Shown: piece after piece, positions 3,418-21,815 of the stretch
Layout of the letters: each line of letters begins with the position of its first letter
Position numbering within the stretch: position 1 is the stretch's first letter
Origin: a virus
Strand: one strand, 5' to 3'
IMG/VR virus record: IMGVR_UViG_3300037517_001005
Location: 1 to 37,373 of that record
DNA: 37,373 nucleotides
Program-made: the position numbers and the translations under genes
Notes under the pieces: generated by a model
The model's input: the letters and a program-made list of their open reading frames with translations, nothing else
Database searches by the model: none
What the model was told of the DNA's origin: nothing

Positions 3418-4764
3418 TTATAGGATATGGGGTATATCACCCATGGCGAAGCCCAAACCCTGAACCTGCATGTTGAGTCTGGCCCCACCCCGCTTCTCAA
3501 GAAGCTCAGCTCGGAGGAGTTCGATAGCCTTGTTTTCGTGGAAGGTAAAGAAATCTGGTTTTTCAGTTTGCATCAAGGCGGTAACCATCTCTACCATAGC
3601 AGGGTAGTTTTTGATCGCCATCTCGGAGGAGTCACTGGTCTTCGGTACAAACCGCTTCTTGGCTAGGATAACGATATCGGTGTTTGGAACCGCGCACCCG
3701 CAGTCTGGACGGTTCACAAAATAACGACGTTGAGATTCGTACAAACCGGTAGAGTTGTTCAGAACATAACCCTCTCCACGATCGACTACTGTGCTTACCG
3801 AATCGTTGTTAACAGTTCTATACCCGGGCCCGTTCTCGTGAAAGTCGTACTCCCTCGCAAACAAATCCATCCTCTGATTGTCATGGGCTACAAACAAAAT
3901 CGAGTCTACTTCATTAGGGAGATAGATTTCCCCGTTGGTGGGTACGCTTACAGTATACTGGTCAATCGTCCCGAACCATTTACCCTTGGTCATCAGATGT
4001 TCCTCGGCTCGATCAATTGCGTAGAAGAGGACTGCGTCGTCGGTGTGGAGACCGTCCTTGAGATCGAGAGCCATGCGAGCCCTCATGTAACCCATGGTTC
4101 CGGGTGAAGAGCTTGTGATGATGGACTGATAGTTTAATCGGCGAGCGCCCTCGAGTGTCTTGTCTAACACTACAGACAAACGCTCAACGGCCTTAGCTTC
4201 GAATGTCTGAGCTAGATCGAGCTGTCCGTTCTGTTCCCGCCAAAGGGCGAGGAGCATAAGGCGGAGAGCATCTAAGTCTTGGATGATTAGAAGATCGGTG
4301 TCGGCAGCGGCTGGTTGGAACTGAAGTTTTCCCGTGATCTCAACAAGCGAGGCGTTTCCAGAAACTCGATAGGTGCGGTAATTAGAGGAACTCGGGTCAC
4401 GGCTGACCTTCACGATGGATTGTCCGTCGGCCAAGAAAGCCTGCTCACTATTGGTTAGGAACATGCTCTGGGCGCCGACTGGAGAAATGGGAACTGAGGA
4501 ACTTGTCACCCGCAAGATCGTGTTGATGCCAAAACCACCGAACCCCGTGGCTTGGCTGATGCTACCCGTGTAATCGGGAAGTACGAACAGACCTGCGTTT
4601 ACCTGTACAACATATTTGGCAAGAACGCCCAACCAAGAACGCACCGCATAGAGACGTCTCTGCGCCTCGTTAATGCGGGCGGTGACACGCGAGTCATCTT
4701 GGTATACGCCATTGTCGACGTATACAGAAAGCGTAGCCTTGGCTTCTGCTAGGGTGATTGCCAT
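3418..4764 (-). CDS. Head-tail connector (gatekeeper/adaptor), internally duplicated
   Basis: This 448-residue protein starts with ATG at 4764. Both halves carry the pattern of podovirus connector proteins (T7 gp11 / P22 gp4 type): an N-terminal helix followed by Trp, a beta segment ending in Leu-Pro, and a C-terminal helical pair. The copies are in register at an offset of 219-221 residues: DD at 23/242, Ile31/Ile250, Trp44/Trp263, Tyr51/Tyr270, LP 62/282, KA 191/412 and GAR 206/427. Single-copy relatives are about 200 residues, so this reads as a fused tandem dimer. It would sit under the portal and link it to the tail hub. It is followed closely by internal virion genes and preceded at 3 nt by a chaperone-like gene. 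Confidence 0.7.
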   Translation of the reverse strand: MAITLAEAKATLSVYVDNGVYQDDSRVTARINEAQRRLYAVRSWLGVLAKYVVQVNAGLFVLPDYTGSISQATGFGGFGINTILRVTSSSVPISPVGAQSMFLTNSEQAFLADGQSIVKVSRDPSSSNYRTYRVSGNASLVEITGKLQFQPAAADTDLLIIQDLDALRLMLLALWREQNGQLDLAQTFEAKAVERLSVVLDKTLEGARRLNYQSIITSSSPGTMGYMRARMALDLKDGLHTDDAVLFYAIDRAEEHLMTKGKWFGTIDQYTVSVPTNGEIYLPNEVDSILFVAHDNQRMDLFAREYDFHENGPGYRTVNNDSVSTVVDRGEGYVLNNSTGLYESQRRYFVNRPDCGCAVPNTDIVILAKKRFVPKTSDSSEMAIKNYPAMVEMVTALMQTEKPDFFTFHENKAIELLRAELLEKRGGARLNMQVQGLGFAMGDIPHIL

Positions 4765-4767
4765 GGC

Positions 4768-5127
4768 TTACGCTGGTGGTACTGGCCAGATTACGTCTTG
4801 TGGTGTAGGGAAATCCTTGGTTACGTCACGAAGCTTCTGGCGGTACTCCACCCAAGCAGATTTGTTGGGGATAGTAACATCAGACAACTGTGTCCAATCC
4901 GACTGCTGAAGCTTCCAGTCCCTAGTGTTCCGTGTGGGTGCCCAGATATAATCATCCTCCACATTTGGCCAAGCTGCTTCTAGTTCAGCTTCGGTTGGTT
5001 GGGGTTGGGGATAAGACCAATCAATAAGTTGAGGTCCGTTACCATCCGCCTGATCGACGATATTGTAGTCAGAACCAAACACAATTTCGGGGTAGATGTA
5101 AGAGATAAGGGCTGGGATAATAACCAT
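4768..5127 (-). CDS. Tail assembly chaperone-like protein
   Basis: This 119-residue acidic, Trp/Pro-rich protein starts with ATG at 5127. Its C-terminal half contains RNTRDWKLQQSDWTQLSDVT followed by NKSAWVEYRQKLRDV. That arrangement (RD..L..SDWT...D....K..W..YRQ.LRD) is the hallmark of the small phage tail-fibre/tail assembly chaperone family found downstream of fibre genes. It probably assists folding or attachment of fibre proteins and need not be part of the virion. It lies 1 nt after the C1q-like fibre gene and 3 nt before the connector gene, consistent with late co-expression. Family recognition is good; the precise client is unknown. Confidence 0.75.
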   Translation of the reverse strand: MVIIPALISYIYPEIVFGSDYNIVDQADGNGPQLIDWSYPQPQPTEAELEAAWPNVEDDYIWAPTRNTRDWKLQQSDWTQLSDVTIPNKSAWVEYRQKLRDVTKDFPTPQDVIWPVPPA

Positions 5128-16768: not shown

Positions 16769-16867
16769 ATTCTTTTCTCCTTTGTTAGGAGCGACAGCAA
16801 TCACGACCATGGTAGGACCACGACCGCGTTTCGCCATACACTCGTTGCATCCACAACTCATATTTAT

Positions 16868-16909
16868 AAAAAGAAGGGAGGCGCAGGGATGTAACCTACG
16901 CCCCCCTTC
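16868..16909 (-). terminator. Intrinsic terminator after the major capsid gene
   Basis: On the minus strand a 15-bp stem (16895-16909 with 16873-16887) closes a 7-nt loop and is followed at once by TTTTT (16872-16868). Two positions that mismatch on the plus strand become G-U pairs in minus-strand RNA, so the hairpin is fully paired only in the capsid transcript. This strand-specific pairing and the T-tract make a strong Rho-independent terminator 17 nt after the capsid stop. It would raise capsid mRNA relative to downstream genes. Confidence 0.85.
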
Positions 16910-16925
16910 AATTCAATTACTCAGA

Positions 16926-18149
16926 TTACGAGTAGCAACCAACGAGGCCGAAGTCGGCCGCGCAGCGCTTGTGGCGAATAACCACACCGAGCTCAGGACG
17001 AACGGGTTTCGAACCGGAGCTAAAGATAGCCCGGAAGAATCCGATCGTGCCGTCAGGGTTACAATCCCGGCTGGGGATATTCCGCCAGCGGAAGTCACCG
17101 CGGTAGCTCTGCGGGTCGAATGCCATAGCTCCGGTGGAGCTGATGGGTTTCGCGACCAGCGAGGTGAACACGTCGGGATGGAAGATAATGGAATCTTCGT
17201 ATTCCGCCGTGAAGTACGCGGGATTCGGGATGAACCGAGTGCCCTTCGATGCGTTAGCATCTGTGGCATACGGATAGCGACGAACCCAAGCTCCGCCGAC
17301 GAAGTCGTAGCGAGGAGTCATGGTGTCTACCAAGTGGTAGAAACCAGCGTAGCTACGTTCGACGCCGAGAGGCTGGATCAGTTCGCTGGGTTTCGCAAAA
17401 CGGAGATCCTGACGGATGTCCGCGTTGAGCTTGATTAAGTCGTCAGAAGCCTCGGGGGAGGTGATGAGCAAGAACACGGGAGCACCGTTTTCTTTGCCGT
17501 ATGCATTCTGACCAGCGCCGTCACGAATCAACCTAGAGTAGAAGTACCGCAGGATTCCCTGGGTCAACCGGCTCGAAGGCAGATTGCTCGTGCTGAACGA
17601 ACCTTTGGTCTGGCCGGAAGCCGCCAAGAGTTCGGTCTGGTTAGCGTTGACGTTGTAGTTAGCGAGACGAACGTATTCGTCACGGTAACGGTTTTCCCAA
17701 GCATACTGCGTGTTTTCGGACAGAACCGACATGATATTGCGGAGCTGTTCCTGCCGCTTCACGGGGAAGCGAAGGTCGTTCAAGCAGATATCAGGCGAGT
17801 TGATTGCAGCCTGCTGGAGGTTATAGGTTCGCAGAGTCTGGGCGAAGCCGAGGTCGTTACCGGCCACAGCGCAGGTTCCGGGTCCGGTGTTAGAACCGGT
17901 AGGGGTAGCGCCGATGACTTGGGTGCCGACACCGTTATACGCAACGTCAGTAAACGTGATCCCAGCACCGGAAGCCGGCAGGGTCCGCTCATAGATCAGA
18001 ACGTTAACAGTTGTGCCCATCTCATCCGGCCAAGCTTCTTGCTTAACCAGAGTCGTCCACGGGGACGTGTTCAAAGTCTTCCGATAGATATCCGCACCGA
18101 TACGGCCGGACTCAGTAATCAGAAGATTCTCAATATTTGTACATGCCAT
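16926..18149 (-). CDS. Major capsid protein
   Basis: This 407-residue protein starts with ATG at 18149 after an AAGGAG Shine-Dalgarno. The sequence reads as a podovirus HK97-fold-type major head protein: N-terminal arm (MACTNIENLLITESGRIGAD), a long helix region NTQYAWENRYRDEYVRLANY, and a domain with PSELIQPLGVERSYAGFYHL, then FIPNPAYFTAEYEDSIIFHP typical of the A/P domains, and a Cys-containing C-terminus. Order (portal, scaffold, then this) and its private promoter-like site, long leader and terminator all fit the most abundant virion protein. The exact family was not confirmed. Confidence 0.8.
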   Translation of the reverse strand: MACTNIENLLITESGRIGADIYRKTLNTSPWTTLVKQEAWPDEMGTTVNVLIYERTLPASGAGITFTDVAYNGVGTQVIGATPTGSNTGPGTCAVAGNDLGFAQTLRTYNLQQAAINSPDICLNDLRFPVKRQEQLRNIMSVLSENTQYAWENRYRDEYVRLANYNVNANQTELLAASGQTKGSFSTSNLPSSRLTQGILRYFYSRLIRDGAGQNAYGKENGAPVFLLITSPEASDDLIKLNADIRQDLRFAKPSELIQPLGVERSYAGFYHLVDTMTPRYDFVGGAWVRRYPYATDANASKGTRFIPNPAYFTAEYEDSIIFHPDVFTSLVAKPISSTGAMAFDPQSYRGDFRWRNIPSRDCNPDGTIGFFRAIFSSGSKPVRPELGVVIRHKRCAADFGLVGCYS

Positions 18150-18361
18150 ATTAGTTATCTCCTTGTTGAAGTAATGACTGAAGACTTCTCATCACACGAT
18201 GAGCGTGTCTCTTTGTCGTTTCTTAGTTTAAGAGCCGGCAAGCCCTAGAAGTTAGTTGGATATCCGTTAGCCGTCGGATACCGCGTCGGTGTCATTTAAG
18301 CGTAGCCTGTAGGGCGCAGGCGAGTTAGCCCCATCGCATCGACACCTCTGCCAAAGAACTG
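18150..18361 (-). ncRNA. Structured 5' leader of the capsid mRNA (candidate regulatory RNA)
   Basis: This 250-bp gene-free interval would give a ~210-nt leader. On the minus strand three elements are visible. An outer stem GGTGTC/GACACC (18341-18346 with 18288-18293) encloses a hairpin GCCTG/CAGGC (18317-18321 with 18305-18309). The loop of that hairpin (GCCC, 18312-18315) can pair with GGGC at 18328-18331, an H-type pseudoknot order. Next, a GGTATCCG/CGGATATCC hairpin occupies 18258-18282. Last, CTCATC-GTGT-GATGAG lies at 18188-18203, just ahead of the Shine-Dalgarno. No known riboswitch or ribozyme consensus was recognised. Regulation of capsid translation or mRNA stability is inferred. Confidence 0.5.
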
Positions 18362-18367
18362 AGATAC

Positions 18368-18395
18368 GATGTAACTAGTTGATGCAGGGTGTCAA
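18368..18395 (-). promoter_or_regulatory. Promoter-like site for the capsid gene
   Basis: The minus strand has a perfect -35-like TTGACA (18390-18395), a 16-nt spacer and TACATC (18368-18373) as a weak -10. It starts 4 nt after the stop codon of the upstream gene. The pattern TTGAC-N14-AGTTAC recurs exactly at 19.7 kb. Transcription would begin near 18361. Confidence 0.5.
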
Positions 18396-18399
18396 GACC

Positions 18400-19704
18400 C
18401 TACCGAGAAATCTCTTCCCAATCCATTGAGGCAAAGATATTGTTACCGCCTCCCCCAACAGTCTGGGCGGCTACCGCGATAGTTATCTCATAGGCTGTAG
18501 AAGTAAAGGTATCTCGCTCTAATTGAAAACGGAAAAGGGCTTCCTTTAAGATATCGAGAGCCGGGTTAGACTGGTTAGATTGGCTGATGAATCCGCTAGC
18601 GAGAATACGCCCACCAGACACACCTGTTCCGTTTATTTTATATTCCACAGCACTGTCAGATCCTGGGTCTGTCCAAGAACCACCAGCAGTTGTAGTGCCA
18701 GCCAATACTCTCCAATTATAGTTCCCAGTAGAAGCGGGTAAAACAGAAAGAGCAGTAAGGATGACGACGGCGTCTAACCGAGTAGATTTTAAGCGAATAG
18801 ACACAATAGGGTAATACGTCCCAGCGACGGACATGTTATATGGAACTGTAATGACTGTACCTGCAGCCTTTTGAGTCCCGTATAGTTGATATCCACCCTC
18901 CGATATAACAGTCGAACAGACCTGCTTAAGAGTACTAGAACCGGAAGTAGCACCGGTATTCTCAATCTCAAGGCGAAGAGGAAGACTAGCTGTAGTGATG
19001 TAAGTAGAAGTAATTAGATTGGCGTGGTGGAAAGAGTGGCAAGTAATAAACTGACCATTGATTACAAAACCAAGACGCACAGTCCCAAGACCAAGCCATT
19101 CGATATCCATCCACATGATTTGAGCTTTAGCGATATCGAGAGTCAAACCAGAAGGGCCGGAACCATCTAACTTATCGCCATTCCAATTGGCTTGGTTAAC
19201 AGTAGTTGTAGTTCCGGTAGAAAGACTCCTCTCGACGAAACTCAGGGTAGTTCCATCAAGTTGGAGATACAGACCATTGTCTGTACCAAAATACCCAGCT
19301 CGTTGTCTCAAATTTGTTTTAGCCCCAGCAAAAACAAAAGTATTTAGAACTAACAAAGACTTACCGGGTTGGTAAGAGAAAACCTTGGTTGTTTCACGAA
19401 GCACTTTAGAACCAGAGGCAGCCGTAACAGTAAGGTCTATTAGTCCTTGATTGGCGTTGAAGGATACCGCACCACCCGTAGCTGTGGACGAATTCCATAA
19501 AGCGTTGTCTTGATACCTATGACTGGAATCAAACAGAGTAAAGGGGTTTGATACACGCAGACGACCAAATGCGTCGGAAGCAATTCCACTCCCATCTAAA
19601 GAGATACCAACGTTTCCGTTTAATAGATCATTTATTTTTTGAAGCGACCGAACTTCGGTATCTAGCGGTAGCGGGTTGTTATTCTCAGGAAAGTATGCTG
19701 GCAC
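18400..19704 (-). CDS. Virion structural protein, jelly-roll-like, with PLPLD N-terminal module
   Basis: This 434-residue protein starts at GTG 19704; no other plausible start exists before residue ~195. The N-terminus has the FPENNNPLPLD docking-like module shared with the 105-residue protein at 14.5 kb. It continues with SDAFGRLRVSNPFTLFDSSH, an FGR.RVS.P.TLFD motif I associate with large phage structural proteins. Residues ~75-240 look like a concanavalin/jelly-roll fold (NTFVFAGAKTNLRQRAGYFG), followed by a second beta domain. It probably decorates the head or neck. No Shine-Dalgarno precedes the GTG, which lies where a promoter-like site would start transcription. Confidence 0.7.
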   Translation of the reverse strand: MPAYFPENNNPLPLDTEVRSLQKINDLLNGNVGISLDGSGIASDAFGRLRVSNPFTLFDSSHRYQDNALWNSSTATGGAVSFNANQGLIDLTVTAASGSKVLRETTKVFSYQPGKSLLVLNTFVFAGAKTNLRQRAGYFGTDNGLYLQLDGTTLSFVERSLSTGTTTTVNQANWNGDKLDGSGPSGLTLDIAKAQIMWMDIEWLGLGTVRLGFVINGQFITCHSFHHANLITSTYITTASLPLRLEIENTGATSGSSTLKQVCSTVISEGGYQLYGTQKAAGTVITVPYNMSVAGTYYPIVSIRLKSTRLDAVVILTALSVLPASTGNYNWRVLAGTTTAGGSWTDPGSDSAVEYKINGTGVSGGRILASGFISQSNQSNPALDILKEALFRFQLERDTFTSTAYEITIAVAAQTVGGGGNNIFASMDWEEISR

Positions 19705-19710
19705 GGGCTG

Positions 19711-19738
19711 AAGGTAACTGAATGGGGGTGCAGGTCAA
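19711..19738 (-). promoter_or_regulatory. Second copy of the promoter-like motif
   Basis: The minus strand has TTGACC (19733-19738), a 16-nt spacer and TACCTT (19711-19716), sharing TTGAC-N14-AGTTAC with the site at 18.4 kb. It lies just after the glycosyltransferase stop codon. The predicted start of transcription coincides with the GTG at 19704, so the mRNA would be leaderless, or the site is not a promoter. Confidence 0.35.
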
Positions 19739-19742
19739 TGAC

Positions 19743-20438
19743 CTACTCTAGGAGTTTTTCTAGTTCTTGGCGATTAGCGTCGATGCCTCCCCAAGACCAA
19801 AACTGCCTGACAGTATCCTTATCCTGTTTAGGATCTCTCCATTCGAACTTATCCCTATGGTGCTTCCAAGCATAAGCCCCTAGGGTATTATACTCGCTAA
19901 ACCTACGATCTGGTCGAGTAGCAACGAAAGTGTCAAAAGGCACTTTATGGGTAGTCTGTAAAAAGTCCCTCATCTCTTTGTATAACCACCTAGGGAACGT
20001 ATGTGGTGGCCTACGCATAAACTCAAACTCGGGTTTCCACCCAATTGCCTCCTCGACAATGGGTTGCCAAGGGCATTCTCCAATCCTATCGTAGGGTTCG
20101 TAGTACAGGATGGCCTTGCCATCGTGGATGAAATTCTTTGGGAATACATCGTGCAACCACACAGTATCGGAATCGATGTGGCAGATGAAATCGGCATCGG
20201 AGTAGAGATCAGCGTTTAGCTTGGTTACTTGCTGGCCTAAGTAATCCTCTGCGTACCTAGGACAAATATGTACTTTCTCCAAGGTAAGATGATTCAACTC
20301 GTGCTGGTCACCATGGGGTACAACGATATGAATTTGGCGGAAACCTTTGGCTGACTTAGCGCAGGACTTCAGGCAATACGAAAGCCACTCGAAGTCTTTC
20401 TTGTAGCTACGGATGAATAGGTCTACAGAGGCTTGCAT
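19743..20438 (-). CDS. Glycosyltransferase, GT-A-like (DUF6492-like)
   Basis: This 231-residue protein starts with ATG at 20438. The N-terminus ASVDLFIRSYKKDFEWLSYC and the strand QIHIVVPHGD match nucleotide-sugar-binding GT-A folds. The metal-binding DxD motif is visible as HIDSDTVW (Asp89, Asp91), preceded by the conserved helix KLNADLYSDADF. The C-terminal half contains FSEYNTLGAYAW, the acceptor-side E.N..G.Y motif of this group. It would transfer a sugar from an activated donor in the cytoplasm. Its start overlaps the methyltransferase stop by 16 nt. It lies inside the head gene block, so virion proteins or co-expressed glycans are possible acceptors. Confidence 0.75.
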   Translation of the reverse strand: MQASVDLFIRSYKKDFEWLSYCLKSCAKSAKGFRQIHIVVPHGDQHELNHLTLEKVHICPRYAEDYLGQQVTKLNADLYSDADFICHIDSDTVWLHDVFPKNFIHDGKAILYYEPYDRIGECPWQPIVEEAIGWKPEFEFMRRPPHTFPRWLYKEMRDFLQTTHKVPFDTFVATRPDRRFSEYNTLGAYAWKHHRDKFEWRDPKQDKDTVRQFWSWGGIDANRQELEKLLE

Positions 20439-21076
20439 AAAAGATCGTATTGGGGTCCTTCCTCGGGCGGGAATGATTGTAATTCGTACCCAAGTTCAGA
20501 TCGTAGATAAGTGATTAATGAGATCGGTGATTCGCCTCGTTGCTGTAAGGCGTGTTCGTTAACCTCGATCCACATAACCGGACGATGCTTCGTGATTGTT
20601 TTCTTGGCACCCTTTAACGCTGATACTTCAAATCCCTCCACGTCCAACTTAAAGAAATCAAGCCGAGGTAGGTCGTACGAATCCAGAGTTACCACGAATA
20701 CAACCCTATCCCCAAATTCAGTTATACGACTTGATCCAGCGTTATCGGCTACGGAAAAGAACTGGCTACTCGGTTTATCACTAAGTCCAGCTTTGACCGT
20801 TATAGCCGAAGGACAGTTGTAAACTAAACACTCGTAAGCAGAGAGGTTGGGTTCGAAGGCGTAGACTCTCCCAGTAGAACCTACAGCCCTAGCATAGGCA
20901 ACGGTGTGGTCACCAATGAAAGCCCCAGCGTCGACGACGTAATCGCCATCCTTGATGTGCTTTAAAATTATCGGGAGAGAGTACTCGTCGTGATCCAACT
21001 TCCCAGTCTCTTCGACCCAGCGGGAAATATGCGAATCGTTTTCTAGTACCGCAATGTTATTTGGTAGGATCTTCAC
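20423..21076 (-). CDS. FkbM-family SAM-dependent methyltransferase
   Basis: This 217-residue protein starts at GTG 21076 (AGGAAA ~9 nt upstream), overlapping the preceding gene by 20 nt. The SAM-binding motif I is DYVVDAGAFIGDHTVAYARA (residues ~45-64), followed by the acidic ribose-binding VYAFEPN (Glu75) and the FkbM signature FFKLDVEGFEVSALKGA. Length and motif order fit a complete enzyme. FkbM enzymes O-methylate sugars or hydroxyl groups in glycans and natural products. Between two glycosyltransferase-like genes, methylation of the glycan being built is the natural reading. The acceptor is not known. Confidence 0.85.
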   Translation of the reverse strand: MKILPNNIAVLENDSHISRWVEETGKLDHDEYSLPIILKHIKDGDYVVDAGAFIGDHTVAYARAVGSTGRVYAFEPNLSAYECLVYNCPSAITVKAGLSDKPSSQFFSVADNAGSSRITEFGDRVVFVVTLDSYDLPRLDFFKLDVEGFEVSALKGAKKTITKHRPVMWIEVNEHALQQRGESPISLITYLRSELGYELQSFPPEEGPQYDLLCKPL

Positions 21077-21815
21077 TTCCTAGTTTCCTACGCATCCTAC
21101 GCTTTTTAGGTTTTACTTCGGGGGTCGTGGCTAATTCTACTTTCTTAGGGGAACGACGCTCACGAAGTCTTTCAATCAATGTGCCGTCCTTATTCTGGTG
21201 AAACAACAAAGCTTCCTTACTAACCATGGCATCAACGCTGGCCTGATCTGGGAAGGTGAAGTTACGCCCCTCGTCGTTACGCCAAACATGCTGAATCGAG
21301 TTTGTCCAATGGGCTTGACCAACAATCTGCTCCGCGCCAACAACGTCAAAAGCGGCAAGATCAGCATGGATCAAATTAAACGCCCGCTCCATGACATTCT
21401 TTGGGTAGATAGCGTTTCCGCTCATGTGCTCTGGAGTATTTTGAACATTGACCCGAGCACCCATAAAATACTGACCGCAGGTGCGATACTCAGAATCTAG
21501 AAGATCGAGCCATCCCGACACCAAAGGGATACAGTCTGGTTCGCACCAGAAATACGCTTCGGGATTCGGACTCCAAGTAATATGCTGGGCAACCCGCTTA
21601 AACAAATGGTTAGGGCTCATAGGCCAGCCACGTTCGTCTTCGTCGTGGGGTACGTACAATTCGTAAGAACGGCTAAGCTCGGTAGGATTGGGAACTCTAC
21701 GAGCACACGCAACCATCAAGCGATGACTACCAATGCCACCGAGTTCCTCAACCCAGTTAAGCCAACGAATCGCCTGCTCCCGATCCTGGGGACCGACTGG
21801 CAGTACGACTAGCAT
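21057..21815 (-). CDS. Glycosyltransferase-like protein
   Basis: This 252-residue protein starts with ATG at 21815, sharing one base with the scaffold stop (TAATG). The N-terminus MLVVLPVGPQDREQAIRWLN and the strand HRLMVACARR match a GT-A-like nucleotide-binding start. The core EAYFWCEPDCIPLVSGWLDL has an acidic ExD (Glu92, Asp94) where DxD is expected. Then come a loop with GNAIYPKNV and an acceptor-side aromatic region. The C-terminal ~40 residues are strongly basic (KPKKRRMRRKLG), unlike normal transferases. It is translationally coupled to the scaffold gene, so it is made with head proteins. The activity is inferred. Confidence 0.6.
   Translation of the reverse strand: MLVVLPVGPQDREQAIRWLNWVEELGGIGSHRLMVACARRVPNPTELSRSYELYVPHDEDERGWPMSPNHLFKRVAQHITWSPNPEAYFWCEPDCIPLVSGWLDLLDSEYRTCGQYFMGARVNVQNTPEHMSGNAIYPKNVMERAFNLIHADLAAFDVVGAEQIVGQAHWTNSIQHVWRNDEGRNFTFPDQASVDAMVSKEALLFHQNKDGTLIERLRERRSPKKVELATTPEVKPKKRRMRRKLGSEDPTK

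Follow-up and report, generated by a model that had tools for sequence, protein, structure and literature searches.

A candidate family of pseudoknotted RNA leaders upstream of the major capsid gene in uncultured phages

Results and Discussion

Capsid Locus and Promoter Region

The sequence analysed is IMG/VR virus record IMGVR_UViG_3300037517_001005 (37,373 nt, hereafter the window), and all features of the window given below lie on its minus strand. Exactly 250 nt (18399–18150) separate the gene of the major capsid protein (407 aa, 16926–18149) from its 5' neighbour, an ORF at 18400–19704 encoding a phrog_1645 virion protein, as the first-pass annotation had claimed, and the flanking genes are nearly gapless. 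The one further notable gap (16862–16925) holds a strong intrinsic terminator 3' of the capsid gene (16873–16909, 15 pairs, TTTTT), which gives the capsid gene the appearance of an insulated unit. A terminator 3' of the capsid gene is also present in the related loci L003, L004, L009 and L015, while in several relatives none was found within 160 nt of the capsid match.

The earlier label "capsid" for this ORF was right, since the AlphaFold model of the protein (33 homologues as input; mean pLDDT 67, i.e., moderate confidence) matches gp56, the major coat protein of phage N4 (best E 2.9e-11 in Foldseek), together with other HK97-fold capsids. The PDB gave 276 matches (E below 0.001), the viral structure library was matched as well, and the model shows an HK97-type fold. 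The 407-aa sequence gave no match in Pfam or PHROGs, and no member of the family was found in cultured phages or GTDB species genomes; despite this, the family is common in IMG/VR.

The gap opens with a perfect -35 element, TTGACA (18390–18395), at which the conservation between phages also starts. The best -10 candidate (TTACAT/TACATC, 18368–18374, within the conserved block AACTAGTTACATC) is weak, as TTACAT stands at a spacing of 15 nt and agrees with the consensus at 3 of 6 positions, and for this reason the window promoter is not listed by a standard sigma-70 scan. The idea that the capsid gene has a private promoter is thus only half supported: the -35 element stands, while the -10 element is poor. 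Most of the distant leaders discussed below have TTGAC or TTGCA at the equivalent position, although the general sigma-70 score across leaders is barely higher than in shuffled sequences (8.8 vs. 8.2) and the recurring part is the TTGAC half only. In the L115/L163 group, about 7 nt lie between a TATACT box and the start of the first pseudoknot.

The -10 of the capsid promoter has inverted repeats on its flanks or directly adjoining it in L019 (approx. 4750–4800) and in the leaders of L055, L060, L069, L104, L107 and L111, where they lie about 200–270 nt 5' of the capsid start; examples are TCCTGCTAGC...GCTAGCAGGA in L019 and GCTCTAATGG...CCATTAGAGC in L069. They resemble operators or 5'-end hairpins, and differ from subfamily to subfamily.

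Architecture of the Leader RNA in the Window

The leader of the window, about 210 nt long, contains two pseudoknots and one further hairpin. Its outer stem P1 (GGUGUC/GACACC with an inner GCG/CGC, 18288–18346) encloses pseudoknot 1 and is paired in 100% of cells of the close-relative alignment described below, the outer strands being GGTGTC at 18346–18341 and GACACC at 18293–18288. A second copy of GACACC overlaps the -35 element. In L015 and L016 this upstream copy is broken while the other still pairs, as G-U, which identifies the downstream copy as the conserved partner in P1. Pseudoknot 1 (GGGGC-UAACUC-GCCUG-C-GCCCU-A-CAGGC, 18305–18332) follows a strict H-type pattern, its four strands GGGGC (18332–18328), GCCTG (18321–18317), GCCCT (18315–18311) and CAGGC (18309–18305) standing in the required order. 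This pattern has no second occurrence on either strand of the 37-kb window, and 2 out of 1000 dinucleotide-shuffled versions of the leader contained one.

Downstream lie hairpins P2 (GGUAUCCG-ACGGCUAA-CGGAUAUC, 18282–18259) and P3 (AGGGC-UUGCCG-GCUCU, 18246–18231). The first-pass annotation had named the outer stem, the H-type order and two further hairpins, and all of these are there; what it overlooked is that the P2 loop CGGC and the P3 loop GCCG are complementary, which gives a loop-loop pseudoknot 2. Hairpin C (GAC/GUC, GAGAC/GUCUU and CUCAUC/GAUGAG, 18176–18217), which shows covariation, is directly 5' of the Shine-Dalgarno sequence AAGGAG (18159–18164), and the latter is 9 nt 5' of the ATG. 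Near the other end of the leader, the strand UUCUUUG (18352–18358) is complementary to CAAGGAG (18159–18165), a pairing that RNAalifold places at columns 42–48 with 239–245. It could occlude the Shine-Dalgarno sequence over a long range, or it may arise by chance because the strand is U-rich. The same pairing is possible in nearly all 16 close relatives, although their Shine-Dalgarno sequence is shifted. The nested minimum free energy of the single leader is not significant (z = -1.56), and nested single-sequence folding was therefore left out as evidence, so that the case is a comparative one.

Covariation and Linkage in Close Relatives

A capsid search of IMG/VR gave 51 loci. Relatives with 89–100% capsid identity have leaders that are 86–100% identical, and the structural alignment of the close relatives contains 16 leaders and 48 proposed pairs (768 cells). 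All 48 pairs, both pseudoknots included, are kept in 100% of the 768 cells, compared with at most 44% pairing in a control in which the partners were slid. Both sides of a pair changed at columns 124/137 (C-G to U-A in L015) and 194/220 (G-C to A-U in L015 and L016), and a third two-sided change, C-G to U-A at 188/226, came from RNAalifold, which extends hairpin C to include this pair. Arranged by element, P1 changes from G-C to G-U in two relatives, P2 has a double change from C-G to U-A in L015 besides UG/UA and GU/GC changes in other relatives, P3 changes from GU to AU in L015/L016, and hairpin C has double changes in L015/L016 (G-C to A-U and C-G to U-A). The top pair of stem 1 of pseudoknot 1 is G-U, with A-U in L007 and G-C in L009. 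In the 16-leader set, neither stem 2 of pseudoknot 1 nor the loop-loop pair of pseudoknot 2 varies, and consequently neither receives covariation support from it.

The departures within pairs amount to 84 G-U cells and 0 A-C cells, which means that the capsid-sense RNA is the folded strand. This bears on the explanation that the conservation serves the DNA (an operator, an origin or a packaging site) or a leader peptide, with RNA pairing only incidental to it. Although the inverted repeats flanking the -10 region in several relatives would agree with such an explanation, we find it scarcely credible, as G-U departures without A-C departures disfavour a DNA-level function as the sole cause, and pairing in pseudoknot order with two-sided changes also argues against it. 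A leader peptide or conserved upstream ORF was rejected by eye because of single-base indels (in the leaders of L011, L013 and L014) and the lack of a common frame.

Leader identity among relatives ranges from 84 to 99% and often exceeds that at third codon positions of the capsid gene (in L014, 97.7% vs. 80.1%). The 250 nt 5' of the leader drop to 17–40% identity where relatives carry another upstream gene, so conservation starts at the promoter. The leader core is found once per contig in 18 IMG/VR contigs, in 17 of them before the capsid gene and in one at the contig end, and a search of cultured phages found nothing similar to the leader DNA.

Leaders of Distant Capsid Homologues

Further searches recovered capsids of 35–55% identity, with their own leader at the equivalent place. 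This distant set consists of 46 non-redundant leaders, all with long non-coding sequence 5' of the capsid gene. The pseudoknot descriptor GAGC...S2...GGCUC...S2' was matched in 36 of the 46, compared with a mean of 0.1 in shuffled leaders; in 4.8 Mb of locus sequence, both strands included, it had 33 distinct matches outside leaders. Its stem 1 is GAGC/GGCUC and its stem 2 varies freely, e.g., CUCACGU/ACGUGAG, CUUUUAC/GUAAAAG, GUCGG/CCGAC, CCUGC/GCAGG and CAUUC/GAAUG. When the anchors were taken from the GGCUC motif, a few of them chosen by hand, the mean complementarity of stem 2 was 14.7 for own pairs and 8.9 (sd 0.9) for permuted ones, and none of 2000 permutations was as high. For a second pseudoknot type, S1-loop-S2-S1'-(G)YAA-S2', the corresponding values were 13.2 and 6.1 (0 of 5000), a figure which is biased upwards because the examples were chosen partly by their own pairing. 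The unpaired letters beside the stems also recur, namely GC-UAA and, in other subfamilies, G-Y-A-A.

The window subfamily itself is without GAGC/GGCUC, and what ties it to the distant leaders is a homologous capsid, the same position and the same construction, in which a strand ending in GC, followed by UAA, pairs with the 6–7-nt apical loop of a downstream hairpin. In the window, this corresponds to GGGGC-UAA ... GCCUG[C-GCCCU-A]CAGGC for pseudoknot 1 and CGGC-UAA ... AGGGC[UU-GCCG]GCUCU for pseudoknot 2, and the L043/L055/L060 group, read by eye, apparently has two GC-UAA units in tandem. The leader RNAs of the window and of the distant relatives are likely to share descent, of which alignment gives no proof.

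The first reading of the region as a structured leader resembling a cis-regulatory RNA, for which covariation in homologous leaders had been proposed as the check, has held up well: stems covary in close and distant capsid leaders, and the leader is present in single copy before the capsid gene. In our view, sequence comparison makes the structural part alone highly probable: the stems exist at the RNA level and stand in pseudoknot order, and the element is linked to the capsid gene and recurs in front of diverged homologues of that gene.

Several side observations belong to the same leaders. In L115, L157, L159, L162, L163 and L167, the Shine-Dalgarno sequence is within a small hairpin (GCCCUGAGGAGGGC in L115; GCCUUAGGAGAGGC). 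Start-stop pairs of the form ATG/GTG/TTG-AGC-TAA occur at the first pseudoknot strand in L055, L060 and L043 and are absent from other subfamilies, and are probably a coincidence. The pattern GGAACCNNNNNTTCCGCAA had 120 matches across IMG/VR, nearly all due to chance, and the genuine ones were capsid leaders again.

Comparison with Known RNA Families and Phage Systems

Membership of an Rfam 15 family requires a covariance-model score that reaches the gathering cut-off, and at this threshold the window and 11 relatives gave 0 matches. The E-value mode gave nothing relevant, and matches to snoRNA and STAXI models were sub-threshold. As Rfam gives no match in either mode, it agrees with the first-pass annotation, which had recognised no known RNA family. 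The leader can be regarded as a new RNA family, one that belongs to the established kind of structured phage mRNA leaders. A small-molecule riboswitch might be expected to combine pseudoknots, recurrent unpaired letters and a 5'-UTR position as the leader does; however, it is found only before the capsid gene, its subfamilies share no alternative terminator or ribosome-site switch, and no Rfam riboswitch was matched, so we hold this to be very improbable.

The STAXI motif (RF01728), which consists of two or three tandem pseudoknots near phage-related elements, is similar to the leader in its tandem pseudoknots and phage association, but differs in being near DNA-manipulation genes and in having UUCG tetraloops (PMC2864571). 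Its model had no match in the window or in any leader tested. A STAXI match of 23.9 bits (cut-off 40.5) is present in L068 at 4265–4377 (minus strand); relative to the capsid match it lies downstream and in the opposite orientation.

The open-access literature yielded no report of pseudoknots in a phage capsid leader. Phage N4 (Schitoviridae), whose capsid fold is nearest to that of the window, lacks the leader gap: its gp57 and coat genes are 11 nt apart, which rules it out as a carrier of the leader. Gene 10 of phage T7 forms a separate unit of promoter, leader, capsid gene and terminator, and is alike in being an insulated capsid transcription unit with its own leader; it differs in that T7 has a T7 promoter and an RNase III site, whereas here the capsid leader has pseudoknots.

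Phage HK022 put RNA (approx. 70 nt, two stem-loops), which acts on RNA polymerase and serves early genes rather than a capsid gene, is likewise a phage RNA element directly 3' of a promoter (PMC9378689). By analogy with put or EAR, the nascent leader could modify RNA polymerase and allow partial read-through of the post-capsid terminator into the downstream genes. The leader does lie directly 3' of the promoter and on the transcribed strand, with a strong terminator 3' of the capsid gene, and put itself would be the phage precedent (PMC9378689). We nevertheless consider antitermination improbable, since the leader does not have the size or the form of put (two pseudoknots and a hairpin in about 210 nt, vs. 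two stem-loops in about 70 nt), no terminator was found near the capsid match in several relatives, and neither EAR nor any other Rfam model was matched.

Proposed Role of the Leader

Because position, strand, linkage and covariation fit, we prefer to see the leader as a structured 5'-UTR acting in cis on a monocistronic capsid mRNA. Together with its promoter, leader and terminator, the capsid gene would form an insulated unit of its own. The leader RNA folds into two tandem pseudoknots, in each of which a GC-UAA strand pairs with the loop at the tip of a downstream hairpin, and a third hairpin precedes an open Shine-Dalgarno sequence. The least certain step is that the compact folded 5' end would shield the mRNA, which is presumably very abundant, from 5'-end-dependent decay (by RppH/RNase E or RNase J), while the ribosome site would stay open, so that capsid could be made in large excess over the products of neighbouring genes. 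Shielding with an open ribosome site is ranked first because the structures are near the presumed 5' end of the mRNA and far from the Shine-Dalgarno sequence of the window, and also because 5' structure is an established stabiliser of bacterial mRNAs in RNase E and RNase J hosts alike (PMC3997798). We give this whole reading, with two pseudoknots, 5' shield and open Shine-Dalgarno sequence, a probability of slightly under one half; that the leader is transcribed and sets the amount of capsid protein is, judging from the sequence, probable. The poor -10 of the window counts against the reading.

Two further features do not sit easily with plain shielding. The recurrent unpaired letters (GC-UAA; G-Y-A-A) go beyond what it needs and suggest a binding partner, and the Shine-Dalgarno sequence hidden in a hairpin in some relatives, such as L115, points to translational control. 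Autogenous binding, in which excess capsid (or scaffold) protein would bind the pseudoknots and repress capsid translation in the manner of gp32, is a strong rival for these same reasons. The recurrent letters stand next to freely varying stems, the leader occurs only before this capsid gene and is inherited with it, the hairpin-held Shine-Dalgarno sequence is seen in the L115, L159 and L162 groups, and UUCUUUG could pair with the Shine-Dalgarno sequence in the window. The precedent is gene 32 of T4 and RB69, the unusually stable mRNA of an abundant protein, which has an H-type pseudoknot in its 5' leader (PMC3014915). An H-type pseudoknot in the 5' leader is found here too, by sequence and covariation, but gene 32 has only one pseudoknot, which lies 67 nt 5' of the start codon, encodes an ssDNA-binding protein and belongs to T4-type phages (PMC3014915). 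In the window group, on the other hand, about 67 nt separate the end of the pseudoknots from the Shine-Dalgarno sequence, which is open; the capsid model has no obvious RNA-binding domain, and the architecture varies between subfamilies. On this balance an autogenous operator seems unlikely to us, and shielding by a structured 5' end remains the preferred explanation.

The capsid is normally the most abundant virion protein, and a pseudoknotted leader tied to its gene across a phage group, and kept with compensatory changes down to 35% capsid identity, offers a concrete and testable element for the setting of capsid dosage in tailed phages, as well as a candidate RNA family absent from Rfam. 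It is rather doubtful, though conceivable, that the tandem apical-loop GC-UAA pseudoknots would constitute an undescribed RNA class spread through a large uncultured phage clade, serving as a dedicated sensor-regulator of capsid supply, in which case capsid, scaffold or a host factor would bind the 5' end of the mRNA.

Genes 5' of the Capsid Promoter

In the window, the region 5' of the capsid promoter (18400–21815) encodes, besides the phrog_1645 virion protein, a DUF6492 protein and an FkbM-type methyltransferase. The capsid promoter seems to be an insertion point, with accessory genes entering on its 5' side. In distant relatives (e.g., L072 and L107), an ORF of 390–400 aa with a scaffold-like FLDAIEKRF tail adjoins this side.
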